Source: Globomyces pollinis-pini (taxonomy: Eukaryota; Chytridiomycota; Chytridiomycetes; Rhizophydiales; Globomycetaceae). Taken from it: a stretch of 64,000 nucleotides of DNA. A program made the translations under genes and the position numbers. The notes beneath the pieces are model-generated. The model was not told the origin of the DNA, searched no databases, and saw only the letters and a program-made list of their open reading frames with translations. Positions 21,798 to 46,365 of the stretch are shown here, in pieces (position 1 is the first letter of the stretch; each line of letters starts with the position of its first letter). The stretch spans positions 1 through 64,000 of the forward strand of contig MU621145.1 in the NCBI GenBank assembly GCA_025399215.1, written 5' to 3'.

Positions 21798-22158
21798 TTA
21801 AATTATGTGCAACGAAATGCTGTATGATGAGAAAAAAATTACAAGATTGGGAGGTTCAATAGGAAGAAAATCACTATGGAGCTAATTACTGATAAATTAT
21901 TTGATTAATGGTTTGGAATCATTACAAAGGACACGGATGGTTGGTGAATTTGTTTAATTCAACACGCTTGTATGGCAGGTATATCTCAATCAATTACATA
22001 AGTGACAATACCAATTATTTCTTTAAATTATATTAAAATGGGTTTTTGAGACGATATAAATCGCGATCTGAATGATTAGTAAATACAAAAGATTACTATA
22101 GCTATTTAAAACATTCCCATTCGAATCTGTACCCGACCAGGCCAGGAACATCTGGAGA
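21798..22158. other. Intergenic region, AP-3 beta start side
   Basis: About 360 nt, AT-rich, no recognisable gene. It should contain the AP-3 beta promoter and the 3' end of the secreted protein gene. Confidence 0.4.
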
Positions 22159-22861: not shown

Positions 22862-23170
22862 TTGTGTGAAAGTTTGTTTTGATCGCGTCGAGCAAACAAG
22901 CAATTTATAACATCCTTTCAACCAAACAATTGCAAATAAATGGCGAAAAACACACCCATTAGACTGAATTATTTTTATTTGATACATTCTATTGTTTTCT
23001 AATTGATGCTTTTCATCCTATATATATCCCTCGCTAAAAATGAGCAATTGATCAGCTTGCCATAACTACTTAGAGTATTACCACTTGCATCGGTCCCTTG
23101 CCAAGCTAGCCTAACCTTTTTATGTTAAACTTATTATGATAGATGGTTACTGTTGCGTTGCATGTTTTTG
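22862..23170. other. Spacer between the two secreted-protein paralogues
   Basis: About 309 nt between the start of copy 1 and the stop of copy 2, both on the minus strand. AT-rich with no frame I recognise; presumably the promoter of copy 1 and the 3' UTR of copy 2. Confidence 0.4.
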
Positions 23171-23857
23171 CTAGGTAATGTTCAACATATTGGGAAACTT
23201 ACATGGACACAGTTCGCTGCAAATGTTATTGACGCAATTACATCCGGATAATATGCATTGTGTTGGTGCCCATTCAAAATTTACAATCTCGCCTAACGTT
23301 TAAATCAACTTTTAAACCTTGTTTAACTGTCACCAATGCGGTTCTCCCTGGAACATAAAATGTCTGGCCAAATCTATTCACTGATAAATGCTGGTATGGT
23401 AGTTCTAAATGCTTCCCTAATTGTAAGCATATTTTGATATTCCATACCTGACACATACCAAATCAAACTTACGTTTGCATAGTTCGCACCAGATGCTAAA
23501 GTATCAAGTATGTCCCAGCCTATTGATAAGATATTATCCAGTTACTGTTTGGAACCGACATTTCCGTGTAATCATCTATCATTATGGAGTTTTAGTATTA
23601 CCAACAGTTGGGTAATATACACCTGTATACCTTCTCTGACCTGTATCCGTGCCCTTTACAAGTCTGAAATACATCATAATTTGATTTCCTCGACTAATGG
23701 ATGGTGCCAATGACTTTGTAGATACACTTGGCCAAAGCGTTCTGACACTCTGTAAATATCCCAAGAATGGTTTTGCAGCTTCGTACATTGAATCATACAA
23801 AGCAAAACTCTGACAGTGTATTATACCCACCCATAACCAGAACTGTAGAACTCTCAT
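23171..23857 (-). CDS. Secreted protein of unknown family, tandem copy 2
   Basis: ATG at 23857 gives MRVLQFWLWVGIIHCQSFAL, a signal peptide. After four short introns (25-26 nt each) the mature chain aligns with copy 1: MMYFRLVKGTDTGQRRYTGV, then VDDYTEMSVPNSWDILDTL, FGQTFYVPGRTALVTVKQG, and VNFEWAPTQCILSGCNCVNN followed by ICSELCPCKFPNMLNIT. The intron within the PNS motif occupies the same position in both genes, so they arose by tandem duplication. Sequence divergence is high outside these anchors, which suggests an old or fast-evolving pair. Function unknown. Confidence 0.65.
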
Positions 23858-23946
23858 TTTTTGGCTAAGAATTGAGAGGGTTAGACGCGTTCTTCCATTC
23901 CTACATACATTATCAAATAACACTTTTATGATGTTTAAATGAATTA

Positions 23947-24969
23947 TTATTTATTGGCCATAGAGTATTCCGGAAATATACTGGTTAACGTTTCATAAAA
24001 CAGTTCAGAAAACATGTCATCTACATTTGTACCATTCAATGCCGAAACTTCAAAAAACCTTTCATTTTGATTATTAAGCAAACTGAATAGTTTACCTCGC
24101 TTTACACATATCTGCCATTTGTTCTCCTTGTTCAAATGTGACTTCACGTTTCTCTTCCAAGTCAGATTTGTTTCCAAGTACATACAAAATTACATCTGTT
24201 GTACAGTATTGTTTAAATTCTTCAATCCTAATTTGAATCCATTAATATACAGCAGGCAAACCATCTCTTTAGCGATGCGTATGTTGATATATCAGATATA
24301 TCGTATACCAAAATAACCTAACATTTAAAAACATGCCATCATACTCCATGTGTATCTTTATAGAACTCATTCCTGATATCAAAATAAACATCGTCCCCAG
24401 CAGTATCCCAAAAATTGACTTTAACTACAAAATATTAAGGCATAAATTTCACCATCTTCCAAGTGTGTTTTAAATGATTTGACACCGTAATCAATTCCTA
24501 TTGTAGATACATATTCTTCCATGAACTACGTGAATATCAACATATTCGAATTACTTTCGATTCACAATATCTTTTTATCAAACAACTTTTGCCAACAGTA
24601 GAATCTCCAATGCTCAATATTTTTATCCTACCAATAAATAACACTGGATTACCTTTTATATTCTGATGGTTCATTTGCTGACGGTGGTGATGGTTTGGTT
24701 TGCTTTGGGGGTAATTGTGGAACAAGTGTCTTTGAAGCGGCTCTATTATTCGGAAGTGGTGGTTTTAAGCGAGTAACAGACTGAGTTCCAGTTTTGTCTT
24801 TCATTGAAATATTATTTGTGGATGAATGTACAGCTTTAGCATTCTTTATATTTCCAGTTGATTTCGTCGTATCATTTGATTTTAGATTTTGTATATGTTT
24901 GTTCTGTACTGTGTTTTTTAATGCTGGTGGGTCTTCTATCAATTCGTCGTCGCTATTATCGCTACTCAT
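23947..24969 (-). CDS. RJL: RJL-family Ras-like GTPase (DNAJC27/RBJ-like, without DnaJ domain)
   Basis: ATG at 24969 begins an acidic, Ser/Pro-rich extension of about 105 residues (MSSDNSDDELIEDPPALKNT). The GTPase starts at IKILSIGDSTVGKSCLIKRY (P-loop GDSTVGKS), then STIGIDYGVKSFKTH, FWDTAGDDVYFDIRNEFYKD (G3 DTAG; RNEFYKDT is an RJL signature), GNKSDLEEKREVTFEQ (G4 NKSD) and EVSALNGTNVDDMF (G5). No J domain follows; the protein ends SIFPEYSMANK with no prenylation cysteine. RJL GTPases are retained mainly in flagellated lineages, which agrees with WDR92 nearby. Introns are short. Confidence 0.75.
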
Positions 24970-25160
24970 TTAAAAGACGTGTCAAAAATAGTCTAATTTT
25001 CTCTCTCATTATTTCGATACAAGCGCTCAATCTTAACTTCAATCTCCTCAACGAAGGAGAATAAAATCAACAAATGCTCAATTCAATTAAAATTCACTCC
25101 ATTATCTTTATAAGTCCAAAACTAATGGAAGCATGTGTTATTAGCACCTACAGTATTAAA

Positions 25161-25985
25161 TCATAAAGTTGAATTACTTTCTTCATGAATTTCCATTTCA
25201 GACTTTTTGAATTGATTCAACTCTTCACGAATTTCTACTTTCATCTGTTGTGTAAGATTTTTGAAAGTTGCAGTAGCATCAGGTTTACGATTGTATTCAG
25301 ATTTACGAAAGGTAGGTAAGACTTCAACAGTTTCAGACCAGATTAATATCTTTGCAGCTTGTAACTCTTCGACTGCTGGTCGATCTCTGATCTTGGCACT
25401 GAGGGTATCCTCTAAGATGGATCGTTTTAATTGTTCTTGTGCATTTAAAAGAGCCGGACTAACGGCGGCATTTCCAGTACCTATAACAATGAATTCATTT
25501 GTACACGTTACTCTTAAGAATATTTTGTTGTTCCAATTGGGCCTTTTCAGGTCTTTTTTTAAGACATCCTTTCAAAACTTTCTTTTTACTTTCAAAACTT
25601 TCTTCTTCTATTGTTTCTTCCATTTCAGATTCTAAAATGAGATTTATGAGTAAATGATTGATACCTCCTTTGAGAATATTTCGATTCTTTAGGTCATCCT
25701 TAGATGGTCGTAAACTGATTTTACGAGCTAATGTATCTTTCTTCTTCTCTTCTTCTAATGCCATTTTCTGTTGTACAATAGCATTGGATATTCCACTATT
25801 CACCTCATCTTCTATACATTGTTAATACTTTAAAAGGTATACCTCGTAATATATTCTTTTGTACCAACTCTTGTGGTGATGCCCTGGTACTAAATCGTTT
25901 CCCCAAATCTATCTTTATCAGATGGTATTGGGTTACCATTGACGATTTTGGATAATCCTCCTTTCTCTGCTGCTACTTCTGCCAT
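25161..25985 (-). CDS. RPEL-repeat protein
   Basis: ATG at 25985 opens MAEVAAEKGGLSKIVN. Splicing shows four RPEL-type units: LGKRFSTRASPQELVQKNIL, RKISLRPSKDDLKNRNILK, LKGCLKKRPEKAQLEQQNIL and AKIRDRPAVEELQAAKIL. The pattern 'L..(K/R).RP...(E/D)L...NIL' matches RPEL, a motif that binds monomeric actin in MRTF and phactr proteins. The tail (SETVEVLPTFRKSEYNRKPD, then an acidic helical end) is typical of small fungal RPEL proteins. About 220 residues, four short introns. Actin binding is inferred from the motif. Confidence 0.75.
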
Positions 25986-26169
25986 TTTGCGTGATTTGAA
26001 AGTCTATTTTTTTCGTGAGTTGGAAAATATAAATGTAGTAAACAATGGAAACTATTTATACAAACTGAATGTGTTGGAGCATATCCAAGATTGATTATAC
26101 AAAGAATACTTATATTCAAAAATTTATATTCATTTGATTAGGTTATAATATAATTGATCAATAACTTAT

Positions 26170-29100
26170 CTATCCCTTATAAAAAGGCCACTTCAATCTT
26201 GTTGGCAATGACTTCTTATCATTGAAATAGCGATGTGCTAGATATACACTTTGAGTATTCATATAATCAGGATGCTTTGCAAATTCCAAATTTGGTTGAC
26301 CATCTGGGTTAAAGAGCCGAAGTTCTTCCAATGGAACAGCAGAACTATTGTTAAATGATTGACAATTACTATTCTAGAGGGGTGTGGAAATATGATATCA
26401 AAGTTTCACCAGGTTGACAAACTGGCATATTATGATCCCGTTCATCTTCAGGAACCATCTAAAGAGTTATTCAACAATAACTTACCAAAGCTGGCCACCA
26501 GAATGGTGCATCTTCTTGTGGATCCACCCAGACCACCCTGGGGACAACATAGCTCATTTTTGGTACCACACCCTTGACAATACCAATGGACATAGAGTTA
26601 TCATCGTCATTTCCAATAGTAAATGAATCCGCAGATACGTCACTTGAAGAATCTGCATAATTTGGTTCTAAAATTAAGTTGAGGGCAGTTACCAGATTGT
26701 CGAGATTTTCTTTTTGATTCATTAATATCTTCCATGACTACATCAATCGACTCTTCTTGGTGTAAAGATGCATTCTGATCTTGCGATGGCATTGAAGAGT
26801 CCAATGGAATCGACTGGTTCTCAGTTATAATTTTATTCGGAGAATCGATCAACATGTTGAGTTCCTGATGACCATCTTTATCTTCATTGACTACCTTTCC
26901 GGGGTTTTCAATATTTTCCATCACAGGAGCAGGCTCGTTGTTGATTTCTGGAGCAATTTCATCCACTATAGAGATTAGGCTCTCTTCCGAATCTCCTTTG
27001 GACAACACAAAACAAGCTAAATATTAAATCAAGATTCTTACAAGGCACAGATGGTGGCTTAATATCTTGTATGTGCTCCTGATCTTCATCCTCAACAACA
27101 TTTGTAGATTTTTGCTTTTTGACCTATGAATAAGACATAATAATCTAACCCTTGGTCTAACTTTTGAAGATTTATGAACAAATTTTCTATCAGGCCATTC
27201 AATATCAAAAATCAATTCATGTCTGTAACATCGACTACAGTGAGTAGCTTGCATGATAGAGGTATCTAAAAAGACCGTAGGTCTAGCGGTTATATCCAAC
27301 ACCGTTTGACAAATTTCGCAATTGCCCTCCGGTGCTTTTCGTTTACGTTTTTCCAACTCCAATTTTGCATCCAATCCAATCAGATCTTTTTTCGTCAAAT
27401 CTCGGTAAGAAAATGTAGACTTTATCCCACGGGTAGGTCTGTTTCTAACCTGTAAAGTTTCACTAATGACACCAGTAGTCCCAAGTTTTGGAGCGAACGC
27501 TCCTGTGGTATATCTAATTTTAGATACATGAAACATTACAATTCGCAACTGGCACATAAGCATTCACAATTGTTCTCGCCGAAATAATTGTCGCCATAGT
27601 AGGTTGTTAATTCCTCTCCAATTTCGATCCGACGTTTGACTTTGAAAAAGATTTCATCAGAGCCATTTCCAGCTGGGATAAACTATAGTTATTAGGCTAT
27701 TAAAATATATACTTGACAATTGGCACGACAATCATGGTTGACAAATCGCGCAGGTCCGGTAAATAAACAATTTGCATCCCGTTTGGAGGAATACATGACT
27801 GAAAAATCGCGATTATCAAGCATTTTTTCTTCCTCTGGTGTCAACTCTACTATAAATCCACACATAAATTTAATTTCATCACCATTCTCCCATACTCTTG
27901 TCGAACGAACTCGAGCTTCCACTTTATCAGTGCTCTTATAACGGAACGTTCGGTCTATTTCATATCCAGCACGTACATGATACATATTGATATACCGCCG
28001 ACAATGACTAATTTTCGTTAATGTAATAAACTTACTCGCCAAATAATTTTAAATCCCTGTCAACATTTGGAGCCAAGCACCCCTTTAACACCAATACAGC
28101 ATTTTCAAGTAAACGAGCATCTTTTTCAGGGTTCAAATAGCGACTTTTATCTATTGGTGTTCCATTGGGAAAAAATAAATCCGTCAATAAAGCCACAAAA
28201 TCATCTGTGGTGATCTTATTGTTAATAATGGCTCTAATATAGTAAGCAATACATTGTGGAAAATAAAGTTCATCAATTTCATCAAAAATAGGATGATGAA
28301 GAAGAGAATCTAAAATATTTAATATATTCAAACTTACAGTTAGTTTCAAAATCTAAATGCATTTTATGGGTTGTAAACGATAGAAAGAATGCATCCAAGA
28401 ATAGGTTTGTTAAAATATCATCATATTCCGAAATGGACTGATACCGAGATTGTATATGTACAGGACCAAATTGAAGAGTGTTCAACACGTCGGATTTTCG
28501 AAGTTCATATTCAACCATTGTTGCCTTTGCAAGATTAACCGAATCTTGTAGTCGGTCAGCATCCTCTTGGAAGCTATATAGACATTCTTCAAGATCAAAA
28601 TCACTTTTAACAGATACAGCCTCACTAATTTCAACTGTCTCCTTTTCCGATTGATCATCAACAATCGTTGGTGTTGAATTTTCGTTCTCCTTTTGTTCTG
28701 AAAGAAGAATATGATTTTTCACCATGCTTATGCCTTGGTTTGTTAAACTACCATCATATTCACTAATAGACTGATGTCGAGATTGGATATGTACAGGACT
28801 AAATTGAACAGCATTCAAAACGTCAGATTTTCGCAATTCATATTCAACCATTGTTGCCTTTGCAAGATTAACCGAATCTTGTAGTCGGTCAGCATCCTTT
28901 TGGAAGCTATATAGACATCCTTCAAGATCAAAATCACTTTTAACAGAAGTAACCTCGCTGATTTCAACTGTTTCCTTTTCCGATTGATCATCTTCAACAG
29001 TTGGTGTTGAATTTTCCTTCTCTGTTTGTTCTTCAGAAACTATATCATTTATGTGTATCTCTTGTGATTGAGACATAATCACTTCACCAGAATCATTTCC

Positions 29101-30949
29101 ATATTCATCTCCTTCAATATCAAGAAATTGATCGTCACCACTAAGGATTTCTTTTTTCCCCTTTTTGACTGCCTTTTTAACCCGTTTTTCAATCTTTTTT
29201 GGCGATTCCGACTTGGTATTACTAGAAGTCAGTTAGTGAAACCTAGTAAATATACTTTTTCAATTGATTCCGTCGTGAACGTGTCATCGTTTTACCATCA
29301 TCAGGTGTTGCCTCTATTTCCAAAAGAAATCTCTCTTCATAGGTTTTGTATTTATCAATTGTCCAAGCCCATTTGCCAGGTTTATAAACCGAACTAGATT
29401 TGCTCTGCTCCAACTCTTCAGAAGTTGGTTCTATAGGTTCCGCCTTTAATGCATTGGTGTGAGCCAATGTATGTCTTCTCTTTGGTCTTTTGCTCTCCTT
29501 GCTTTCCTTATCATTTGCTTTCTGGTCATGGAAAGATTTTCTTCTCGAACTTGAACGAAGATTCTCTGATCTAGTTTGATGAGTGGACTGTCGCCTTGAA
29601 GGTTTTTGATTTTTTGACGCTGACGATACGACTTCTTTTGAGGACAGTTTTTGGAAATCTATGATGTAGTCAGCTGCGATACGATCAAGTTTCTCTACAT
29701 CTAACTCTGGAACGGAGTCTACTGTTTCCTGAACAGTTTGTTCTTCACTCAGTTGTGTTTCGAGTGCTGGAATGGTGTCAACGATCATGTGATCAGCGCT
29801 ATCTTGTGGATTACCCATATCAATTTCAACATCCTTCGTATTTGAATGACCATGCTTGGTGTTTTCCCTTATGATGCAACGTGAATCATTCTTCATTTCT
29901 TCTTCAGTATTTGTCCCATCTATGCTTAAAGTTGATTCTGGAGCTTCAATGATATTATCTACAAAATTTTCAACTTGTTCTGTACAATTCACAATGGAGT
30001 TGTTCTCTACAATATCAGTTTCCAAAAGTGGCGGCACAAGTACTTGCTCATCGTCGATCAATGAAGTTTGAGCATTATTTAAATCATTTCCATTTTCACT
30101 GTGGTCAGAGACTGATGTTTCCATATCAGTTGTTTCGATTATTTCACCATCCATTAATGATGTTTGGATGGATGAACTTTCCAGGGTTTTTTCATCAATC
30201 TTTGTTTCGATATCTATTGCTTCTTTTTCGTCATCCATTAACAAGGTTCGAGTGTCTTGTAAATCATTTTCTCCGTGATCAGAGACTAACCTTTCCACAG
30301 CAGGCATTTTTTCATCACAATTTGTTTCCATATCAATTGCTTCTGAAAAACATTGAATTTTTTTATCATTCGTTAATGAAGTTTGAATGTTTGACACACC
30401 ATTTTCTTTGTAGTCAGAATGAATCATAATTTCGTGATTTCGGACAGAGTCCACAACCTCACCCTCATTCATACTGGTATCAGTGGTATGGTTTTGTAAT
30501 TGATCATCAGTCATGGGATTTTTGTGAAGATCATAGTGAACTGCAGGTTTACAACAGTCAGTATCTGTTTTGGTTTCCGTCATCAGTATCATGTTAGTAA
30601 TAACATCACCGCCCTCTGGTTTAAAGTTTGGGTTCTCTATTAGATTGCCATCTACAGGATCTGAGTGATCATTGGTTTGTCCAGAAGGTTGATCCTGTTT
30701 ATGGTCCAATTCACTGCTTTGAAGTGTGATTTCCTTTAAAGGCCCACTTTCATTCAAATCTGGGATAGTTTGGACATTGGTATATATGTTATGGATATGA
30801 TGATCGTTTCCAGAAGCTGTATTTAACAGTTTATTTTTGATCAACTTGCAATTAAAGAGGGAAATATTTACCAGACATTGATCTACACTACTCTGTAGTA
30901 TATCTTGAGATTGGTTGTTGTTCTCTGTTGATTCAGTGGAATGCAACAT
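26170..30949 (-). CDS. SET9: SUV4-20/Set9-type histone H4-K20 methyltransferase with very long N-terminus and PWWP-like end
   Basis: From the ATG at 30949, about 560 residues of acidic, disordered sequence run to KPGKWAWTIDKYKTYEERFL, a basic patch (RSRRNQLKK), and a 111-residue duplicated segment. The catalytic part begins SISEYDDILTNLFLDAFFLS (Set9 N-domain), continues INMYHVRAGYEIDRTFRY, and contains SET motifs GPARFVNHDCRANCQ and GEELTTYYGDNYFGENNC, with the zinc post-SET ECLCASCEL. Next is a CxxC...CxxC segment (NCEICQTVLDI, HCSRCYRHELIF), an acidic linker, and a PWWP-like end: VWVDPQEDAPFWWPAL then EELRLFNPDGQPNL, finishing LPTRLKWPFYKG. The enzyme methylates H4K20 in chromatin. The long N-terminus may be a separate gene, but the frame crosses an intron near 29220-29254 cleanly. 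Confidence 0.8.
28430..29038 (-). repeat. Tandem 333-nt (111-residue) duplication inside SET9
   Basis: Two coding copies, about 28430-28705 and 28763-29038, are offset by exactly 333 nt. Each encodes a Glu/Ser stretch (DDQSEKETVEIS), then SVKSDFDLExCLYSFQ, DADRLQDSVNLAKATMVEYE and LRKSDVLN, ending QSISEYD. Only the copy nearer the catalytic domain continues into DDILTNLFLDAFF; the other diverges to GSLTNQGISMVK. The DNA is close to identical over long stretches, so the duplication looks recent. Confidence 0.85.
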
Positions 30950-31191
30950 GAAGTAAAGAAATATTTTTTGGTATTTATGAACAACTCGTGCTCTTAGTAG
31001 TTCAGGTCAACTCTTTCTACCAATAAATTCAACTACCTTCAGATTGTTGCTGAGAGTATCTTAAATGTCTCTCATGTCGCGTTTCCTTTTAGTTATATTA
31101 TAAATAGAAGCATTCTACATATAGTTTTTGTGTATCTTTTCTATTACATATCTCATAGCCTCTTATTAATAAATGGGATTTCAGTAGTACT

Positions 31192-31583
31192 GATGGTTCG
31201 TTATGTGCACACTCTTGCAGTAAGTCTTTTTGAAGACTATTATAGTGATGTAACTATTTTTTGTTGCTTTCAAGTTGGTTTTTAAAAATATGGATTGAAA
31301 TCACCAGACTAGGAAATTTTTAAAACAGTAAAGTTCTCTTTCAACTCATAGTTCAATTGGTAGTTGATTTCTATATTTTTGGTTTAGTTTGATTGTTATT
31401 GAATTTCAAATTAAACTCTTTGAATTTGGTTTAAAAGGTGGTATTGAACCTCCCAGTGTATTTATCACTACATGGATTGATTATACAAACAAGTATGGGT
31501 TATCGTATCAACTACGTGATGGTAGTACTGGAGTCTATTTTAATGATGGTACTTCCATTATACTCTTATCCAATCAATTGTAA
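31192..31583 (+). pseudogene. Truncated Polo-box fragment
   Basis: The frame around 31437-31583 encodes GIEPPSVFITTWIDYTNKYG, then LSYQLRDGSTGVYFNDGTSI and ILLSNQL, unmistakably the start of polo box 1 of Polo-like kinases. No kinase domain lies upstream and no second polo box downstream. Upstream there is only a short ATG frame at 31192 (MVRYVHTLAVSLFEDYY). A possible intron at about 31582-31640 would add a non-polo tail. This is probably a duplicated, broken piece of a PLK gene; a tiny expressed single-box protein is the alternative. Confidence 0.6.
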
Positions 31584-31759
31584 CCTTTATTTTTTATCCG
31601 ATTCTACTTTTTTACTTTATTAATCCAAAAACCCCCCAGGTCAACAGCCCCAGAGAATTTGTCTGCGACATTCCCATACAAATTAAATAAAAGTAAAAGT
31701 TTACTAGTGATTTAAATGTCGGGATTCATTCTTGATTGAGATTATAGGGCGAGTAGTGT

Positions 31760-33742
31760 TTATTGTTGTAAAACAAATTGACGCAAGTACAAAAACATAT
31801 TCATCAATACATTAACATCCAGTTCGCACTTCCTACAAACTCCATTTATCATGTTTCCCCATTCATCTGAAGTTTCTACAAAATAGTCAGGACTGTTATT
31901 CTTGTCTTGCAATAAATACTTCCAAATAGTTGGTTGGCATAAGTCAGTGAGATATATCATATGATTTTGGTCTTTGTAATTTGTATGACAGATAAACTTG
32001 ATACAGTCACGATTGAAATCTTTCAATTTGTGTTGGATGCTGGGATACCAAAGAAGGTTGTGCTTGTCGAACAATTCTTTGAGCCTGTTTCTGTCGCATC
32101 CTTTAGGTTCATACGCAAACAAATAATCACAACTGTCAATGAAATTTTTGACCTTGATAGCAGTAGATTCATCCGAGTAATTCGGGTTTAGGATTCTTCT
32201 ATCAGTCCCAGCGTTCGAATCATAACCCACATCATTTAAATATCTTCGTATATGAACCGTTTCATCAGAATCAACCATTTTCAATTTCCATTCACGAGTT
32301 TTGGAAAGTGTGTGAGTACCTCCTCTGCCATCGGATTCTGTATCCCAAATACCCACTCTCTTCCCTCGAATCAAATTCTTAAACTGACACAAAGCCTTCT
32401 GGAAATGTTGTTTGTCTCTTTCGAGACGAAATTCAATAGAAATAACCACTAGAGAACCTTCCTTGACATTGAGTTTCGCTGCTGCTTTCTTTCTGTGATG
32501 CTTCCTGAGTGATTCATAAAATTTAGGGGTGCCGTTATTCTTGGGGTTATTGATTGGGTTGTTCTTTGGATTGTTCTTTGGATTGTTCTTTGGATTGTTC
32601 TTGGGGTTGTTTGTTGTATCGTTCCAAGCTTTGCAACTCCGGCATGACGCATACATTTTACCAGTCTTTTGATTGATATCAAACAACACCAGGACACCGC
32701 TTTTGCGCGTCGTCCCTTCAACACATCTGCAACGGGAACATTTCTTTGGGACCTTTTTCTGGCCAGGAGATTCTTGAATCAGGGTTGATGCATTGGAGAC
32801 AAAAGAAACTTCAGCCGAATTTTCAGACGATTCGATTCTTTCCAAATCTTTTGACAACTCCCTATGATTAGATGCATCGTACGATTCGCCATTGAGCATC
32901 AGTTTTTGAATATTTGGCAAAGAATTGAATGCCGCTGTTGTCCTCTTCGTTTGTGTATATGATATTTGATTGGCTGGAATATTCGTAATGTCCGATAGTG
33001 GTGTTCGAGAGGCTAACGTGTCATAATGAGGGGCTCGTGTTTGCCTGCTCCCAATAACAATACTGCCCTGTCTAATCTGCGTTGAATCCCCGGTATCAAG
33101 GTGCACTTGAATAAATCTTGAAGTGGCAAAGCCTTTAACAGGTTTGAAAGTTTGGGAGGACAACGTTTGTACAGACTTGGTATCAGATGCATGACAATTC
33201 CAGGTAAAAAGTTGAATGGAAACATTTTCTGTAATGCAGCAAGCCATAAGCATCAAGACATCTCCGAATTCAGCATTCTTTGACATTTTGGAACAATATG
33301 CTTCGACAGTGGAGTAACCCAAAAGCTGAATATCAGATAGAAAACAAGAAGCGTTATCACGGATACAAGCAATTGCTCTTTTTCGTAAATCAGCATGGGA
33401 TTCTTGTGAACCAGTCATAGCCAGTAAAATTGAACGTGGCAGGCAATTTCCATCACCAATGACTTGTTTGGAAGGAATAAGACCACCAGGTAAATGGGTT
33501 ATATCTTGAGCATGTGTAATCGAAACAAGCGGATTTTGAAATAGACTGTTTTGCTTTTCAAGTGGTTTAAGAAAAGTAGCAGGGGGTACAGTTTGAGAAC
33601 GAGGAGTCAGGAACCGGGATAAATTAGTCTGTTTCAGTTTCTTGGCAGATGATGATGTAGATACATTGGAAGATTTTCTTTTTCCAAAAGGTTTTTTGAA
33701 TATAGATTCGGCTGTCAATCGTGAGCCCGTGGAATTACCCAC
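31760..33742 (-). CDS. OTU cysteine protease fused to a DEDD exonuclease-like domain, intronless
   Basis: An open frame of 660 codons; it stays open to 33814 and has no good ATG near its start, so it probably continues from the coiled-coil frame upstream. An N-terminal basic Ser-rich region precedes an OTU domain: QVIGDGNCLPRSILLAMTG (Asp/Cys of DGNC), GDVLMLMACCITENVSIQLF and, some 115 residues on, APHYDTL as the candidate His. Then a CxxC-type segment (KKCSRCRCVEGTTRKSGVLV; MYASCRSCKAW) and a low-complexity (NNPK)n run. The C-terminal domain has KRVGIWDTESDGRGGTHTLS (DxE), YLFAYEPKGCDRNRLKELF and KCELDVNVLMNMFLYL, which could supply the four acidic residues of a DEDD exonuclease. OTU enzymes cleave ubiquitin; the exonuclease call is inference. 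Confidence 0.6.
   Translation of the reverse strand: MGNSTGSRLTAESIFKKPFGKRKSSNVSTSSSAKKLKQTNLSRFLTPRSQTVPPATFLKPLEKQNSLFQNPLVSITHAQDITHLPGGLIPSKQVIGDGNCLPRSILLAMTGSQESHADLRKRAIACIRDNASCFLSDIQLLGYSTVEAYCSKMSKNAEFGDVLMLMACCITENVSIQLFTWNCHASDTKSVQTLSSQTFKPVKGFATSRFIQVHLDTGDSTQIRQGSIVIGSRQTRAPHYDTLASRTPLSDITNIPANQISYTQTKRTTAAFNSLPNIQKLMLNGESYDASNHRELSKDLERIESSENSAEVSFVSNASTLIQESPGQKKVPKKCSRCRCVEGTTRKSGVLVLFDINQKTGKMYASCRSCKAWNDTTNNPKNNPKNNPKNNPKNNPINNPKNNGTPKFYESLRKHHRKKAAAKLNVKEGSLVVISIEFRLERDKQHFQKALCQFKNLIRGKRVGIWDTESDGRGGTHTLSKTREWKLKMVDSDETVHIRRYLNDVGYDSNAGTDRRILNPNYSDESTAIKVKNFIDSCDYLFAYEPKGCDRNRLKELFDKHNLLWYPSIQHKLKDFNRDCIKFICHTNYKDQNHMIYLTDLCQPTIWKYLLQDKNNSPDYFVETSDEWGNMINGVCRKCELDVNVLMNMFLYLRQFVLQQ
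32540..32622. repeat. 12-bp tandem repeat encoding NNPK
   Basis: Five or six near-identical 12-bp units (core GGATTGTTCTTT on the plus strand) encode the Asn-Asn-Pro-Lys run inside the OTU protein. It is a minisatellite-like coding repeat likely to vary in copy number. Confidence 0.8.
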
Positions 33743-33780
33743 TGACGGAGTTTCAAATTGACGCCGGGAACTTTGCCCGA

Positions 33781-35152
33781 CTACCAGCCTAGATGAAAAC
33801 CCTGAATTGGATTTTCATCATCATTGACTAGTTTGTCAGGTGGTTCGTTAACCAGTGTCGTATCCTCATCAGTATTGGAACCAGAATCAAGAACCAGATT
33901 TATGGTGGCTTTCCTGGGTATTGGTGTACTCTCTTTAAGTGTCAGCTCCTTGATTTGAGCATCTTTTTCGGCTAGCAACCTTGTCAACTTGTCCGTTTCA
34001 GTGCGATGAAGATCCTTTTCTTCACTTAGTTCCCTATTAAGCCTTTCAACTTCATCTCGGCCAACAATGGCTTGGCGCAATTTCAAGTCAAGTTCGATAA
34101 TCTTGGATCCTTGAGCCTTGTTTTCGAACTTGAGCTTTTCAACTTTGACTTGTTCGTTTTTCTTTGCAAGTTGAAGCTTTACTTGACATTCTTGATGTTC
34201 GCGTTGTAGATTAACCAATTCGGAATGTTGCTTTGTACAGTCTGCTTGAAGTGAATCGAGTTTGTGACATAATTTCTGGCCATTAAGTAGTTCACCTTCG
34301 TTTGATTTCTTGATTAACTCCAGTTCTTTTTCAAGCGTCCCATTATCTGATTGTAGTGATTCCAGCTGGGTTAACAGTTCTTTTTCAGCATTGCTGAATT
34401 TCATTTCTAACATTCTCTTGCTTTTAGACAGCTCTAACACCGAACGTTCAGATTTGCAAAGAGAGGTTTTCGTATTTTCAAGTTGGTCTAACAAACTATC
34501 CGAATGTGACTCAAGTTTTTCAATCCTTGATTTCTTCTGATTCAGCTCGGTGGTTAAAGCAATATTCTGTTTTTGAGCATCTAATAAAGATGATTGGTTT
34601 GATTTTAACTCGGAATTGAAATCAGATTTAACCTTATTTAAAGTACTCTCAAGTTCTTGGATGTGATTATCTTTCTTCGAGATTTGTTCCCTTAATTCTT
34701 TTTTTTGCTTTGCCCATAATGACTGTTCTTTGACTCCAAATTGTTCCATATCGATCAAAGTACTTTTTGTTTCAGTATATTTGAAAGATAGCCTTTCATT
34801 TTCAATTTTCAGTGACTCCAATTGTTGTTCTGTGTCTTTTTTATAAATTTCTTCTTTTTTTGCACGATCACACAATGCCTTCTTCTCATTTTCAAATGCT
34901 ATTTTCTGTTCCAATAGCTCAGCATCATATTTCTGTTTCAATTCCATCAATTCAGCATCCTTTTGTTTTACAGCACCGTTCAAACCATCAACTACATCAC
35001 GAATCTTTTCAAGTTCATTCACAAAAGTTTGATCAGATACAAATTTTTCTGCCTTAAAGTTTTCCGAACTGGATTTTTCATGCTGTAAAGCTTCCTGGAG
35101 ACCCTTGATGGCATTCGAATATGTATGTTCAAGATGTGTGATCTCATTCGTT
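33781..35152 (-). CDS. Long coiled-coil protein, 5' end lost in assembly gap
   Basis: The frame is open from the gap at 35153 to a stop at 33781, over 450 codons with no intron. It is almost entirely coiled coil (for example AVKQKDAELMELKQKYDAEL, ELESTLNKVKSDFNSELKSN, EVERLNRELSEEKDLHRTET) until an acidic end (DSGSNTDEDTTLVNEP). No motor or other domain is visible; the N-terminus is missing. The OTU frame begins within a few codons of this stop in another frame. An 80-nt candidate intron (GTTCCAAT...TTCAG, about 33809-33888) would join the two into one protein. If real, one gene spans 31760 to beyond the gap. Confidence 0.6.
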
Positions 35153-35162
35153 NNNNNNNNNN
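35153..35162. other. Assembly gap (10 N)
   Basis: Ten Ns lie between the coiled-coil frame and the ATG of HMG-CoA lyase. A run this short usually marks a join of unknown size. The coiled-coil gene's start and any spacer are missing. Confidence 0.9.
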
Positions 35163-36214
35163 ATGATTTTACAGAAATTGGTATATTCTGGAAGACGATA
35201 TCTTGCTACAGAGACTCTAAGGAATCCAAATTTCGTAAAAATTGTTGAAGTTGGACCACGAGATGGACTTCAGAACGAAAAAGCAGCATTATCAACAAAT
35301 CTTAAATTACAACTTATCAATAAGTTGATCAATTCTGGTCTTTCTGTTGTAGAAGCTGCTGCATTTGTTTCTCCAAAATGGGTCCCTCAAATGAGTGATG
35401 CATCTGATGTTTGCTCTGCTTTACCATCCTCAACTGGTGTTTCCTTTCCTGTTCTCTGTCCCAACATGCAGGGATTGAAAGCTGCAATGAAGGTAGGGGT
35501 AAAGGAAATTGCAGTCTTTGGAGCTGCATCTGGTACTCGTTTATTATTAATTGGTAGAATCATTCTCAAAAAAGAATATCAATTGCACCATAGAAGAAAG
35601 TCTTCAACGATTTGAACCTGTTATCAAAACTGCTCTTGAAAACAATATTAAAGTACGCGGTTATGTTAGTACTGTTGTTGGTTGTCCATACGAAGGCAAT
35701 ATTGACCCTAAAAAGGTTGCATTTGTTAGTGATACTTTATATAACATGGGTATATCTCTTTTAATTGTTAATTACTCTTATAGGTTGTTACGAAATTTCT
35801 TTAGGGGATACAATCGGTGTTGGTAGATATTGAATATTACTAAATTGTCTAGGAACTCCAGTCAAGTTCTCCAACATGATTGATGCCGTATCAGCAACAG
35901 TTCCTCTAGAAGCATTAGCAGTACATTGTCACGACACTTATGGTCAAGCCATTGGTAACATTGTAGTGTCACTACAAAAAGGAATTAGAGTTGTTGATTC
36001 TTCAGTTGCTGGATTAGGTGGATGTCCTTATGCAAAAGGTGCATCTGGTAATGTTGCAACCGAAGATGTAGTATATCTTCTTCATGGAATGGGATATGAG
36101 ACAGGTGTTGATCTGGAAGCGATTGTTAAAACTGGGCATTGGATATCACAAGAATTACACAGGAACTATATGTCCAAAGCTGGTACAGCTATTGCTGGAG
36201 CATTACATTTATAA
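35163..36214 (+). CDS. HMGCL: Hydroxymethylglutaryl-CoA lyase
   Basis: Cleaves HMG-CoA to acetoacetate and acetyl-CoA at the end of leucine catabolism. ATG at 35163 directly follows the gap; [20 protein letters not shown] looks like a mitochondrial presequence. Three short introns. Conserved blocks: [15 protein letters not shown] (metal-binding Asp, catalytic Arg), [79 protein letters not shown] (metal-binding His pair) and [20 protein letters not shown] with the active-site Cys loop. The chain ends [10 protein letters not shown]. It appears complete and active. Confidence 0.93.
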
Positions 36215-36376
36215 ATGGTGATCATTCAATATATTTCGTGTTTCATTCCGTGATAAGATAAATATCCCATTGATGGGTATTTTTAGGCAACTTTTATAAT
36301 TCTTTTGAGGATCCATTTCCAACATTAAGGGACATGAGGATCCATCACAGATTAGCTTTCAATAATTTTTACCCTG

Positions 36377-38615
36377 ATGTCAAAAACAACACATTTACCT
36401 CTATCACCATCACTATCAAACTCTTTATTCAACCTTACTAAAAAAGTTTCCTTTGAACCGATCAGAGAAGATAACTCTATCTTCATCAATTCTACTCACA
36501 ATAAACCTCATGTTTTAATTCTAAAAAATGATAGAGTTGAGATCATCTCAATTGAAACTGGGTTGGAGATTTCTAGTTGGAGGTTATTGAAATCAATTTA
36601 ATGATTAGAATGACACAAGATGGATTTATTCGTCAATTAAAAGCTTCTACAGATTTCTTGTTTTTGGGAGTTCTTCGTTCAGCTAAAGCTCTAGTATAAC
36701 TATTATATTATTAAAGAAAAGGAAATTAGAACGCTTTATGAAGAGAATGCAATCTGTTCGTTAGTGCGAAATGATAAAAGTTCTGGTATTTTGATGATAT
36801 TAACTTGATGATAGATTCAATCCTAGGATTTGAATGGACATTTTTGGGTGAATTACTATTGTTGACAACAGAAGGAGTTGAATTTTTTCAAGTATCTAAT
36901 ACAATCAATATTCAATCATAGGTTGATTATCATGCAACAAAGTTCACGAAAACAAAATCTATCAAATTACGAATGAATTGGTATCAATATTGGCCAGAAA
37001 CACGATTACTTATTCTATCATCTGGTTCTTTCAACTTATTTATTTATCGATTATCACCTAGTTCACAATACGAAACATTTCCAATTCTTCAATTAGTACT
37101 TCCAAAAATGCGATCTCCAGCATCATCACAATCAAATCTTAATTTTCAAATAACTAGAAAAAATATCTATACCATGAGTTTTTACAGTCATTGTTACGTT
37201 GGATTCTTGAATACTTGGTTAACAGTCCCAACACTTTCACTTTTCAGGATTACAACCAAAACTTGTTACAGGAAAGAGTATGAACTTGATCTTCAACAAC
37301 CTGGTGATTTTTCATTAATTGTAATTGATAACTTATTGGTGATCAATAATTATTCAACAAAGGTGATTCTGTTTGGATTAACCATAGACTTCAATTGTAT
37401 TTGATGTTCGCTCATCAGTTCATTCAAATCCCCTGATTGAACCAAGTTCAGAGATCTTTGATGTTCTTGGTCCCGCTTATGATCATGGTACTTGCCATAT
37501 TATAGCTAAGCATTAGAATTGAATCAGGTCAATTGGTCATGTCACGTTCCAAAATTTCTAATATCTGGAAAGTATGGTTCTGTTTGGAATATATCTTTAA
37601 ACTTGTCCTACTTGCTTGATCAGTTGGATACATTAAAGGAATGGAATTTGGTTAAACAGTCTCAGTTTATTATTCGAAGGAAATCAAATACCGCATACCC
37701 TTTGCGTACACGTCCCATCAAACAGGCAATGCTTTCATTACAAAATTTATCCGATATAAGATCCATTTATGACGTATTATGTGTCAATTATGAACCAACT
37801 AGGTAATTACAATTTTATTTGATCTTTTCTAGATATGTGAGCAGAGCACCATCTTTTGAATCAATGATATCCGAATTATCATCGAAATTTTCTGTTGCAT
37901 CACTCCATTCTCCCGTTTTGCAGCATGAGGATCCAGATTCAAACACAATCTGTTTTCAAGATGATATGTTTTGTCATGTATTTACCCCACTAGCAACTGT
38001 AATTGTTTCTGTTCTAATTTAACTTTAGAAAATCCCATCAGATTACTTTATACAATGTTTGTTAGAGTTTATTGAATGTCAAATGTTTTATGAACAATCA
38101 GTAAAGTCATTTATATATGATTTACTTGTACATTCACTCTTTGAATCAAATTCTTTTGTACAGTTACACCAACTAATTCAATTTCATATCATACCAGATT
38201 CAATTCCACTTGCTCAGAGATTAGTTTCAAATAGCGAAAATTTGAGTAATCTTGAAATGGGGATCAACATGTTGAAACGACTTGAATGTCATAACGACGT
38301 TTTGTCCATTTTAACCGCCAAAGGATCTGTAATACATTATTGATTTACCATTAGTTGTTGGATGCTATTTTATACGCTCAACAATCTCACACCTTGAAAT
38401 TTATCTCCCCTCTACCATTTTTGGAATCAGCGTTGAATACTGGAGATAATACATTGTTTTTGAATGTTTATCGTTGCTTTGAAGAGCATGGATTGATACC
38501 CTTAGCCATGACCATAGATGACGATTCCATCACAGGTCATCGGAATGGAATTGCACGGTATATATCTATATTTAGAGAAATATGGGGAGCATCGATTGAT
38601 ATGGAAAGACTTTAA
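36377..38615 (+). CDS. RMC1: RMC1/Mic1-like protein (Mon1-Ccz1 GEF regulator)
   Basis: RMC1 (C18orf8) is the third subunit of the Mon1-Ccz1 exchange factor for Rab7 in animals. ATG at 36377 begins MSKTTHLPLSPSLSNSLFNL; the N-half is a degenerate beta-propeller (PHVLILKNDRVEIISIETGL; RSSVHSNPLIEP). The C-half is helical, with LQHEDPDSNTICFQDDMFCH, FIECQMFYEQSVKSFIYDLL and the Mic1 end LLDAILYAQQSHTLKFISPL then ALNTGDNTLFLNVYRCFEEH. 'FL..A...GD..LF..V+R.FE' is characteristic. About eight short introns, some joints unresolved around 36600-36960. Family assignment is good; a GEF role is from homologues. Confidence 0.7.
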
Positions 38616-38846
38616 CAACACTCAATAAATACTGTTACCTATACATTTTCTTTTCATATAGTATTGGTTACCATCAGTGAATTAGTGATATTATATTGTC
38701 CATAATTTCTTCCCAACTAAGCAGATATCAAGTACATTTTCTTCCACTCGATTACTTTTTGACTGATCACAAACCTTCATTTAGAGGGTTTGTGAAACAT
38801 TGACCAAACATCGACAAAGTGTGACCAGATCGTCTTTACCAATTCA

Positions 38847-39801
38847 ATGGATTTGGATTCATCAATTAAACCATCATTTTTCCTTGGACCAAAGAATTAT
38901 TGTATTTTAATGAGACTGATGTCTCAATTTGGTCGACGTTTGTTTCTCTGTCGTTTGGGTGTATTCATTGTAGAAATATTCTTGGCCTTGATTTCATTGT
39001 ATATTGATAGAAATGATCCTAAATTGGTCATTTTCATTCCTATTTGTCTTTTTACGATTCTTAGAATCGTTGTCCTTGTATATTGTCCATTATACTTTTC
39101 CATCAGTATCATCAATGGTACTGAAATACGGCATAGAGTTCAGATAGAAGAGAATCGGAAACATTTAAGACTGTAATTTTTGATTTAAATTCATTAACTT
39201 TTTTAGATTGATCGATTTCGCTTTATTTGCTCTCTTCATACCCACTTGTATTGTGTTAGCGTTGACTAAATTCACAAATGAACCTCTTATTTCTTATTAT
39301 GCGTTGATAGTGATCCTTTCAACAACATTTATTACCTTAATATTGCCAATTTTGGCACCTTGGATGATACTTTTGTATGTCATCAGTCAAATGGCTGTAT
39401 ACATGATTGTAGTATTTGCAAAATCAGCAATTCAAGACGTCGAATCGGCAAGACAGAATTCAAGGAGTAAGTATTTTTTGATTAACTTTTTAGTGGAGTT
39501 GATCTATTCATTTCCTGTATTTTCATTCGTACGAAAGGATTCAGTACATTCAATGGAAAAAGAGAATCTCAAACAAAGATCCGATTATCCACCTCATTTA
39601 AGCTCCAATCCATCCATAAAAGTATTAGAATTACACGATGAAGATGCTCTTTGTGCCATCTGTCTAGGAGATTATGAAGAGTTGGAGAATATACGACAGT
39701 TGGGGTGCAGACACCATTTCCATGCTGAATGTGTGGACTCTTGGCTTGAAAAGATGGCAACATGTCCATTATGTATACGAAATATTAGTGATATGAAATA
39801 A
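38847..39801 (+). CDS. Membrane-bound RING-H2 E3 ligase-like protein (copy 1)
   Basis: ATG at 38847. Two introns (about 39174-39206 and 39470-39493) join a membrane domain of about four helices (LGVFIVEIFLALISLYI, VIFIPICLFTILRIVVLVYC, FALFALFIPTCIVLALT, TLILPILAPWMILLYVIS) to a cytosolic linker and a C-terminal RING-H2: DALCAICLGDYEELENIRQL then CRHHFHAECVDSWLEKMATC and PLCIRNISDMK. All eight zinc ligands (C3H2C3) are present. It should act as an E3 ubiquitin ligase in an internal membrane. A paralogue with the same layout lies at 46366-47522. Confidence 0.8.
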
Positions 39802-40008
39802 ATAATTGTACCTATTGGTTTATTCCGTAAAGGATCTGGGAATTCACTGTGAGATCCTAAAGTAGTTGAAAATTTCCACAAAATCTTGAATGGTTTATAA
39901 AAACTAAACGGTTAAATATTACTTTATTTTAGATGATTCAGTACAAGTAGTGGATCTCTGTTAAAATTCCACTTTACCAAAAAATTTCAATAAATCAACA
40001 CACTGGTA

Positions 40009-41638
40009 ATGAATCCAGAGGATATTCAAGTAGAAACATCATCATCTATCAAACAACTCGATGCTAATGATTTGGAAGCTCCAAAAACACCACCATCAGA
40101 TAGATTTGCTCAACGAGCAAATTCACAAAAGGATATTACGATAAATCTAGTTACAGATAATCAAGAATCAAATCCATTTGCAGAAAAAGTAACAACTGAT
40201 GATAAACCATTTGTTTCCGAACCAACTAATGAATCAACAACTGTATCATCGACAATAGATTCAGCTGATAAGTTGAACGACAAGTTGGGTAAATCAGACT
40301 CAGTATCAAATGTGTTTTCTCCAAAGGCAAGATTAAATCCTGTTCCTGCAGTCTTATTACCTATTGTAAGATCATTTGTAGATTTAACCAAAAAAAGCAC
40401 TATCAATTACCAACAAGGCGATGGGTAGATTCTTCCGTATTCTATGATTTGCCTTATTTAGATAATATGGCAAATGTTATTGCTAAAGTTTATCCAAATA
40501 ATTCTCAAAGACCTAAACGTGCCATTAAAACAGTGGAACAAGCAGTAGATACTCCAGATCCTTATGCCACTTTAGTAAATTCAAATAGGTAACAAATTAT
40601 ACTGTATCTAAATATTAGTTGGCGTTCTGTAGCACTTTTAGCTCGTAATGATATAATTGCTTGTCATCCAGCAAATGTAGATGAATTAATGCGCTTATAT
40701 TATATAAGATGGTCTTCGATGATTAAATTAAGATTATATGATATAGTTCAAGGTGAAATGGATAAACTACGAGTGAATGATAGTCAAGATTTGTTTTTTG
40801 AAAAATATCCGGATGTTTTTGAAGGTCGAAAAGGATTGATGATTAGCTTTGATGTTTTAGTATTGATCCACAAACTTCCATCGTACAAGAAGAATATTCA
40901 TGAGAGTATTCATAGGTTTTATAAACTACTATGTCCACAAAAACCAACGGATTTTAGACCAACAAAAGAACAACACATTAGAATTTTATTTCACATTATC
41001 AATTTATTGATTCAAATTCCAGATATTTCTTTGGCCATTCAGGTGATGAAATCAATGCTTGAGGAATTTAAATCAAATCCGGATATGTGGTCAATGTTGG
41101 GGAGATTACAACTTCAAATTGGTGAATTAAGCTCAGCGATACATTCATTTCATCAGGTTAGGTGAAACTTTTTTATTTATTGTAGGTTGAAGTGATTTTG
41201 GGAATTACCTCTCCAGATAGTGAGCCACTTGCACAACCACTTCTTGATCAATTTCCGCGTCCTGATTTAGTATTATTTCAACGAGGTGTCATTTTTTTGG
41301 CCAAGGATTTAACTTCAGAAGCAATTAATATGTTTACACAATTGATTACCATTTTACCAGATTCATCTGCGGCAATGAATAATCTGTCTATCGCTCAGCT
41401 ATATTCTGGAAATGTTAGTCAAGTATAATATCTCTCTGCTAAACCTTAGGCAGCAAGTTTCTTGGAAAGTTTTATAGTTTCAAACCCAGCGGTATCGGCC
41501 AAGTATCCCAACTTGGTATTTAACCTCTCCTCAATGTATGATTTAACAGACTCTTCTTTGTCTAAAAAGAAGGCATTAATACAAGTGATTACAAAGGGAT
41601 GTGGGGATCATTTTGATTCAGATTACTTGAAATTATAA
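40009..41638 (+). CDS. TRAPPC12: TRAPPC12-like TPR protein
   Basis: TRAPPC12 is a TRAPPIII subunit with C-terminal TPRs, acting in ER-Golgi traffic and autophagy. ATG at 40009 (MNPEDIQVETSSSIKQLDAN) starts a disordered acidic region. A 32-nt intron (about 40370-40401) leads into YQLPTRRWVDSSVFYDLPYL. Then come RSVALLARNDIIACHPANVD, ELMRLYYIRWSSMIKLRLYD and IVQGEMDKL, the recognisable core. TPR-like helices follow: DMWSMLGRLQLQIGELSSAI, FQRGVIFLAKDLTSEAINMF, AAMNNLSIAQLYSGN and YPNLVFNLSSMYDL, to the stop at 41638. Introns are short. Confidence 0.75.
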
Positions 41639-41685
41639 CATGGCGGATCTAATTGATTCAATGCTTATAAACTTTTATTGATTAA

Positions 41686-42260
41686 TTATTTTTTTGATTG
41701 AATTCTGGCCTTTCCAGCAGCCAATGATTCGGCTTTTTTGGAACTTGCAGCTTGTTCTGCTTCTTCTTTTTTAGCTTTAGCTTCTTCTCTTTGCTTTCTA
41801 ATTAAAGCGAGTCTGGCTAAATCAGCTCTAGCTTGGTCAGTTTTTCCTTCCATTTGAAGTTTAAAGTAGTGAGCTTGTTTCCTTTCCTTTTCTAAGGCTT
41901 CTCTAAATAGGTAAGTAAATGAATGTACCTTTCTCTTCTGTTTAATTGAGGTTTTTCTTCTTCTTCATCATCATTGATACTTAAATCCTTTAATTTCATA
42001 GTATTCTTTCCAGTTTTCCTATTAGGGTTTGCGATATCGATGAAAGCAGCAGCAGGATTTGATAATTTAGTATCTTCTTCCTCTGATTCCGAGTCAGAAG
42101 GAGGCATTCCTCTGTTAAAGTTCTATAATATTAAAGACAAATGGAATACTCTAGAATTTCTTTCTTCATCTTCTAAATCCTTTGGATTTGTAAAAACTCT
42201 TTCAACTCCTCGTTGAGTTTTATTCATTTTTGTTCCCTTCTTCATTCCCTTTCCTGACAT
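41686..42260 (-). CDS. PDAP1: PDAP1-like (28-kDa heat- and acid-stable phosphoprotein)
   Basis: A small, charged, probably disordered protein of the PAPP/PDAP1 family (casein kinase substrate, PDGF-associated). Exons, read from ATG at 42260: [20 protein letters not shown], an acidic stretch ([11 protein letters not shown]), [20 protein letters not shown] (the family 'IENPNR' block), [20 protein letters not shown], and [20 protein letters not shown] then [12 protein letters not shown], matching human '[23 protein letters not shown]'. The two genes here are convergent: TRAPPC12 stops 48 nt away. Molecular function in fungi is unknown. Confidence 0.85.
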
Positions 42261-42323
42261 GATTAAAAAAACTTCTCATTTGAGCCACCTTTTAAAAACC
42301 CCCATTCACAAATCCTTTCACTA

Positions 42324-43446
42324 ATGAAGGATCTTAAAAAAATTATATTTTTAGGTGAAGAATGTACCGGAAAATCTACATTCTTAAATGTCGGTCTTGG
42401 ACTAAAATTTAATACGGTATTCAATCAATTTCAACTAAAATACTATTAGATTTATAATCCTACAATTCAAGATTATATTACTTCAGATCAATTTCAAAAT
42501 ATTCTATTTATTGATACTGCTGGTAGTCCTGACTTGGATAGACTAAGACCTTCAAATTATTATGATCTCTCTCATATTGTTCTTTGTTTTAGTATACCTT
42601 CTCAACAATCATTCATCAAAGTTGCAGAAAAATGGATGCCAGAGATCTCATATTACATGGATTTAACACCAATCACTTTATTAGGTTTAAAGCAAGATCT
42701 TCGAACAACAAACTCTGTAACGTTTGAACAGGTACAATAATTGATTTAATATCCAGGGAAATGATCTTGCAAAGGAAATAAATGCCACTAGATACATTGA
42801 ATGTAGTGCATTAAATCCCGATGAAACACGTCAGATTTTAGAATCTATTGTAGTGGCAACAAATGATCAACAGTCAAATTGGTGTCATACTAGAAATAAA
42901 TCAAACGTCACTGAAAGTTCAATTGAAGATGGTGATCACAAAACCATTTCAAGTTCAATCACAATGGAATCACTGAACATTATGGACCATCCATCCGTTC
43001 CTCAATTGGATGATATATACAGCCCCAAATTACACCATGTACCTATCAATGACAAAACTCAACCAAATATACTTGATGTAACAAGTTCTGATTTGGATAC
43101 AAGAAACGATAAAGTACAACCTTCGTATTTTACAAGAGGATTACAAAAACAGCAATTATCAAAACCAAATGATTCAACCCCTATTTCAACAGAACAGTCT
43201 ATTTTGCCATTGCGAGCAAATAATTCAAAGTCTACTAAAACTGGATTGAAATCGTGGGGAAACAAGTTATTAAGTGGTACCAAATACGTAGAAACTGGTT
43301 ATAAAAACAATCTTACTGTAAATACAACTACAACAGCTGTAGATCTACATTCACAAGAAGTAGTCAAAATCAAACCATTAGAAACTGTAAATCAAATCAC
43401 TCCAAAAAAAGAAAAGAAAGGATTATTCTTTCGATTATTTCATTGA
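42324..43446 (+). CDS. Divergent Rho-like small GTPase with long C-terminal tail
   Basis: ATG at 42324: KKIIFLGEECTGKSTFLNVG (P-loop GEECTGKS). Splicing at about 42417-42449 gives IYNPTIQDYITSDQF (switch I region), then LFIDTAGSPDLDRLRPSNYY (G3 DTAG), PITLLGLKQDLRTT (G4 LKQD, Rho/Rho3-like rather than NKxD), and INATRYIECSALNPDE (G5). The Rho-specific insert helix between G4 and G5 is not visible. About 190 extra Ser/Thr/Asn-rich residues follow and the chain ends EKKGLFFRLFH, so there is no CaaX box. Prenylation is therefore unlikely; membrane binding could use the basic-aromatic end. The GTPase core is abbreviated. Confidence 0.7.
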
Positions 43447-43531
43447 ACCTTTTTAGTTTGTATATTTTAAAAACCAATTGCATCCAACCTTGTAAAAAAA
43501 TCGTGTTTTTTGATTTGTGCACCATCAATAA

Positions 43532-45292: not shown

Positions 45293-45349
45293 TGAATAAA
45301 CTAAATTATAAACTACCATATTGGTTGGAAATTGAGTACGAGTTAAATT

Positions 45350-46310: not shown

Positions 46311-46365
46311 TTGTAAAGAAAAAGTTTAGAAATTTTATACAAAAAATTCAAATGGTTTATTAAGT

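Follow-up and report, generated by a model that had tools for sequence, protein, structure and literature searches.

The locus described here lies on the minus strand of the first 64,000 nucleotides (nt) of contig MU621145.1, or C56, of the chytrid fungus Globomyces pollinis-pini (this stretch is called the window; assembly GCA_025399215.1, 18.5 Mb in 459 contigs). It consists of two open reading frames (ORFs): ORF B, at 33814-31760, and ORF A, which runs from a gap of ten N to 33781. With a little less than even confidence, we read the locus as two genes and not one; the pair would be what is left of a small mobile cassette of chytrid-like fungi, or the only copy of it to survive. What we see directly is the domain content of the frames, an ORF A end common to relatives, a host-gene graft within ORF A and, at another place in the genome, a relative of ORF A that has decayed. 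The features of the pair are:

31760-33814, minus strand: ORF B, a stop-free frame of 684 codons with a predicted OTU protease, a zinc-ribbon-like segment, an NNPK repeat and a predicted DEDD exonuclease domain
33781-35152, minus strand: ORF A, a coiled-coil protein with a conserved C-terminus and end (TAG at 33783-33781), its 5' end lost in the gap
33784-34156, minus strand: C-terminal part of ORF A, about 125 residues, G+C 0.42, of the family of relatives P0018-P0020
34157-35152, minus strand: host-derived part of ORF A, about 330 residues, G+C 0.34, with 94% DNA identity to a coiled-coil gene at C370:8437-9453
33781-33814, minus strand: overlap of ORF A (frame 0) and ORF B (frame -1), 34 nt including the stop, with an in-frame G GGT TTT at 33802-33796
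35153-35162, no strand: assembly gap (10 N) that separates ORF A from an HMG-CoA-lyase-like gene

Judged from sequence comparison, ORF A looks like a separate gene, and its coiled coil is not the N-terminus of ORF B. The last 127 residues of ORF A retrieve four relatives (E 8e-35 to 6e-19), three of which share the ending F-x-L-G-W; these three, P0018-P0020, stop at the same residue as ORF A (DEDTTLV-EPPDK...ENPSDFQLGW, against DEDTTLVNEPPDK...ENPIQGFHLGW-stop in ORF A). Their family is seen in metagenomes, and its tails are 61-63% identical to that of ORF A. An end preserved at about 62% identity makes the stop look like a property of the protein itself and speaks against explaining the frame change by an intron or an indel. 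The Pfam scan of ORF A gave nothing above cut-off. The first-pass annotation had considered coiled coil, OTU protease and exonuclease to be possibly one gene, with the frames probably joined by an intron or a frameshift; the end shared by three of the four relatives speaks against the single gene, and the intron fares no better. When GT-AG pairs that suit the two frames were listed for lengths of 18-159 nt, with the 5' site anywhere from 34160 to 33741, eight candidates of 20 to 149 nt emerged, none of which is 25-35 nt long. Beyond the gap, the HMG-CoA-lyase-like gene (35163-36214, plus strand) matches PF00682 in three pieces and has very short introns of 25, 34 and 30 nt, the removal of which leaves one open frame. 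The introns of this neighbour (25-34 nt) begin with GTA, and no candidate between ORF A and ORF B combines both features. A single gene joined by an intron, or split only by an assembly indel, is thus improbable in our estimate, even though eight pairs of the right frame exist and the shared end rests on three near-identical relatives. The separate gene also has points against it: P0018 hardly differs from P0019, and P0020 has the same tail, which leaves about one independent comparison, and the fourth relative, P0021, ends differently.

How would ORF B be translated? The first-pass annotation had noticed that the OTU frame opens at the end of the coiled-coil frame and has no ATG start. The two frames overlap by 34 nt, and ORF B holds no ATG upstream of the catalytic Cys124, its first Met being residue 133. 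One explanation is that both frames yield one protein through programmed -1 ribosomal frameshifting of the Gag-Pol kind, the ribosome slipping from ORF A to ORF B at G GGT TTT (33802-33796). The relation of the frames is exactly -1, the heptamer is in the correct register within the overlap, an AUG is absent from ORF B before the catalytic Cys, and the one downstream stretch that was folded (33790-33700) does somewhat better than shuffled sequence (z -2.0; 7 of 200 shuffles did as well), and its first pair forms 6 nt past the heptamer. However, slippery-type heptamers occur at 4 of the 454 ORF A codons, and the chance of one within 11 codons is about 10%. A conserved frameshift site was rejected, as the relatives have S-D-F in place of the window's Q-G-F and cannot encode the heptamer there. 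Likewise, P0002 and P0003, two relatives of the OTU domain, both begin MYDGV, hinting at a start codon of their own, and frameshifting as the route to one protein seems unlikely to us. If the Met of MYDGV is real, ORF B would start just past the ORF A stop in P0002 and P0003, as in stop-coupled reinitiation. In the two-gene cassette, ORF B would be read as a second cistron whose translation is tied to the stop of ORF A, through reinitiation or a start other than AUG, or else ribosomes would now and then enter it by -1 frameshifting.

By its sequence, ORF A is a chimera, a family tail with a copy of a host coiled-coil gene upstream of it. The graft matches C370:8437-9453 at 94% over 1017 aligned columns, with a 21-nt deletion. 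In the C370 gene the open frame spans 1311 residues, and its end sequences are reminiscent of HMMR (no Pfam match in the part scanned). From the gap towards the junction the differences per 150 aligned bases number 1, 2, 5, 3, 8 and 16, followed by 9 in the last 93; dN between graft and C370 gene is 0.039 and dS 0.074. G+C is 0.344 in the host-derived part and 0.419 in the family-specific tail, and the strong similarity to P0018-P0020 lies in that tail. A point against so sharp a division is that a weaker match to P0020, 40% overall, extends to 34704, within the host-derived part, and blurs the junction; this match may be coiled-coil likeness. Elsewhere, C16:35749-36237 holds a fragment of the N-terminal region of the ORF A family, 69-70% identical to P0020 and broken by four stops; the frames on either side, judged by eye, belong to unrelated genes. 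A decayed and dispersed fragment of this type is the expected leftover of a mobile element. About 350 bases upstream of it, the 48 bases at C16:35343-35390 match C46:31097-31145 at 92% and might be a dispersed short repeat.

ORF B needs no intron to be read, and an open frame of 684 codons has a chance of about 2e-20 at its base composition. Its parts are:

33209-33457, minus strand: OTU domain, Pfam PF02338, residues 120-202 (E 1.9e-7, 32 bits against a curated cut-off of 23.3)
33026-33028, minus strand: candidate catalytic His of PHYD, residue 263, conserved in 4 of 4
32633-32740, minus strand: CxxC...CxxC zinc-ribbon-like segment, residues 359-394, with CxxC pairs starting at 359 and 391
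32535-32624, minus strand: minisatellite of 12-nt unit coding NNPK repeats
31763-32545, minus strand: predicted DEDD (DnaQ-like) exonuclease domain, 261 amino acids, acidic residues 491, 493, 574 and 666 of ORF B

The OTU domain with its DGNC motif and candidate His, already recognised in the first-pass annotation, holds up: the PF02338 match is above cut-off, and DGNC (residues 121-124) and PHYD (262-265) are unchanged in all four sequences compared, ORF B and its relatives P0001-P0003. The profile match, which ends at profile position 86 of 128, together with the DGNC box places ORF B among the predicted OTU cysteine proteases. P0001-P0003 are 50-72% identical to it over 37-56% of the query and all exceed the PF02338 cut-off. 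A profile of the four sequences matches OTUD5 and OTUD1 at E 2e-5 to 4e-5, the nearest solved OTU structures by sequence profile; these two are not known to carry a nuclease domain, unlike ORF B. The AlphaFold2 model of the OTU domain, built from 4 sequences, is poor (predicted local distance difference test, pLDDT, 43.4), and the catalytic pairing of Cys124 with the candidate His stays putative. The CxxC-rich segment and the NNPK minisatellite are likewise where they had been reported; the zinc-ribbon-like segment is also present in P0001, and DUF7837, tried as its family, was rejected at an E of only 0.61. Three further OTU Pfam matches lie elsewhere in the genome. One of them, a second OTU gene (C436:1388-1795, minus strand) flanked by long frames, has no significant similarity to ORF B.

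For the C-terminal domain of ORF B, structure prediction gives a DEDD 3'-5' exonuclease fold, which is RNase H-like, and the motifs DTE, CDRNRL and CELDVNV supply acidic residues 491/493, 574 and 666. It is on this predicted fold and the four acidic residues that we assign the domain to the DEDD exonucleases; the proposal of such a domain was checked for a fold unrelated to RNase H-like nucleases and survived. In the nuclease alignment of 15 rows the acidic positions, counted over rows with a residue, read D in 15/15, E in 14/15, D in 13/14 and D in 11/11, the last being 10/10 when P0016 is left out; the tail of P0016 is synaptobrevin, and the tails of P0012 and P0016 are doubtful or not homologous. 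DEDDh and DEDDy enzymes are defined by a His five or a Tyr four residues before the last Asp. In ORF B that His or Tyr is missing and a Lys-Cys pair is in place, with Arg at -5 and Lys at -4 of the last Asp. This counts against our overall reading of the locus, as does Foldseek, where none of the PDB matches reached E <= 0.001, the best being 0.019. The Lys at -4 is found in 11 of the 12 rows with a residue, or 10 of 10 without P0012 and P0016, and no His or Tyr was read by eye at -4 or -5 in those ten rows. By sequence, then, the ORF B nuclease appears to fall outside both the DEDDh and DEDDy subfamilies. Among the 50 BFVD matches listed, DNA polymerases and helicases stand beside exonuclease or RNase H-like proteins, other proteins and unnamed entries; two of the 50 are at E <= 0.001. 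The PHROGs matches were all weak (P0011 best, at E 0.0015; three more at 0.048-0.086), and a viral origin was rejected, no relative being found in the viral contigs or prokaryote genome contigs scanned.

The relatives suggest how the two halves of ORF B came together. Most of their records lack a gene name and may have been split at introns; the named nuclease relatives belong to Chytridiales sp. JEL 0842, Physocladia obscura and Siphonaria sp. JEL0065, the source of the last marking it UNVERIFIED_CONTAM. Three Chytridiomycota zinc-ribbon exonuclease-like proteins share the acidic motifs: HDV05_004456 (P0013), 32% identical over 97% of the query, HK100_009128, 34% identical over 81%, and HDU68_008254 (P0016), which has the UNVERIFIED_CONTAM flag, carries synaptobrevin and matches over 54% of the nuclease domain. 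The zinc-ribbon-like segment bridges the halves: read by eye, P0001 joins OTU and ribbon, P0013 joins ribbon and nuclease, and P0010 begins within the ribbon, with its second half only, and continues into the nuclease. Because P0013, entered under a chytrid name in NCBI and nr, has no OTU domain, unlike ORF B, the OTU domain is most simply seen as a gain in the lineage of the window and P0001, as far as these sequences tell.

Base use and lack of introns had been said to set the locus apart from its neighbours, and each is true in part. Block 32001-34000 has the highest G+C (0.407) of the 32 two-kb blocks of the window, but one unrelated ORF, at 10650-11423, reaches 0.407 as well; within ORF B the OTU half has 0.409 and the nuclease part 0.370. 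ORF B is intronless next to a neighbour with three introns, but the window holds other long intronless frames.

The sequence to the left of ORF B is a patchwork:

30859-31283, no strand: stretch 94% identical to C290:1-449, ending at a breakpoint beyond which C290 continues differently
31284-31432, no strand: 149-nt exact copy of C20:108793-108941, abutting the C290-like sequence exactly at 31283/31284
31488-31577, plus strand: truncated polo-box coding fragment (E 5.6e-12), the only polo-box match found in the genome
31599-31629, no strand: 31-nt exact match to C186:22159-22189

This flank could be the product of template-switch repair at an insertion, of element-mediated capture, or of an assembly or amplification chimera, and the polo-box fragment either was captured as a small piece or indicates that the assembly lacks the polo kinase gene or has it in broken form. 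Is the locus then partly an artefact, the contig joining non-neighbouring pieces around 30953-31760 and at the gap through an amplification chimera or mixed haplotypes? Short stretches that match C290, C20 and C186, the genome's only polo box occurring as a fragment here, and a C290 match whose first 95 bases are identical before divergence sets in, as at a branch of an assembly graph, all fit such an origin. On the other hand, ORF B runs without a break and has no second copy in the assembly, and the ORF A graft has diverged (94%, with its 21-nt deletion), which means that it is not a recent laboratory join; we hold a part-artefact to be unlikely. A general haplotype duplication was rejected, as 20000-31283 and 35163-47000 match only C290:1-449 and a 66-base stretch of C104. 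With 11.3 kb on the left and 11.8 kb on the right nearly unmatched elsewhere, the genome is not generally duplicated at the locus. Further out on the plus strand lie an intronless glycosyl hydrolase family 10 (xylanase-like) frame at 43532-45292 (E 6.7e-42) and, at 14630-16303, an ankyrin-repeat protein with an N-terminal F-box match just under cut-off.

Is the pair a mobile cassette? A mobile or host-conflict origin, raised already in the first-pass annotation, is plausible, and several observations weigh against the cassette. Pfam gave no transposase, recombinase, reverse transcriptase or Rep/helicase match in the four ORFs scanned (ORF A, ORF B and two ORFs at 28285-31006). Neither terminal repeats nor a target-site duplication were recognised, and the inverted pairs are imperfect matches of 14-21 nt. 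A second copy of ORF B was not found in the assembly, either with the nuclease part as query at E <= 10 or with the whole of ORF B at E <= 0.001 or with its relative P0002, only the best candidates being scored. The adjacency of ORF A and ORF B is known from one locus, and the full OTU-exonuclease fusion is seen in one ORF only: within the same predicted ORF, none of the three OTU relatives has the nuclease and none of the 14 nuclease relatives has the OTU domain.

The exonuclease of PAN2 is of the DEDD class, and Helentrons and Helitrons are known for gene capture. PAN2, the catalytic subunit of the Pan2-Pan3 deadenylase, is described in PMC4158885 as an inactive ubiquitin-hydrolase domain joined to an exonuclease, so that, as in ORF B, a ubiquitin-protease fold lies upstream of a C-terminal exonuclease in one polypeptide. 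PAN2 has WD40 and an inactive UCH domain, whereas ORF B has a zinc ribbon and an OTU domain that retains DGNC, and gave no match to WD40; OTU alone is above the Pfam cut-off in ORF B and nothing is in ORF A. PMC4067079 presents Helentrons and Helitrons as mobile elements with an ORF for an OTU-like cysteine protease and a nuclease domain. There, however, the nuclease is an AP endonuclease fused to Rep/helicase, which has no counterpart among the four ORFs scanned. We claim membership in neither group. The combination of domains, which the first-pass annotation did not know, is new in one respect and familiar in another: no OTU-exonuclease fusion or chytrid OTU element was found in the literature titles and abstract starts searched, yet PAN2 already provides the principle of combining a deubiquitinase-type fold with an exonuclease in a single polypeptide.

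The same precedent would allow ORF B to be an ordinary host gene of RNA surveillance or DNA repair, in which, by a PAN2-like logic (PMC4158885), the ubiquitin-protease domain regulates the attached exonuclease. Its motifs look intact and a single copy was found, in keeping with such a role, but the distribution is patchy, the chytrid relative P0013 has no OTU domain, the neighbouring ORF A family has left a relic and ORF A itself carries a host-gene graft, which makes an ordinary host gene rather improbable. For the two-gene cassette, we infer mobility, translational coupling, both enzyme activities and their substrates. The coiled-coil protein of ORF A would assemble or tether a complex, the OTU domain would take ubiquitin off a bound host or element protein, and the exonuclease domain would trim the 3' end of a nucleic acid.

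In its fullest form, which we put forward tentatively and regard as doubtful, the proposal is of an undescribed mobile element of chytrid-like fungi, pairing a coiled-coil protein that swaps in host parts with an OTU-zinc ribbon-DEDD effector of a new subtype, with Lys-Cys in place of His/Tyr. The conserved Lys-Cys that replaces the His/Tyr of DEDD enzymes poses a clear biochemical question. If the mobile cassette is true, early-branching fungi would harbour elements with their own tools for ubiquitin editing and nucleic-acid trimming, and with a coiled-coil gene that renews itself through grafts of host sequence.

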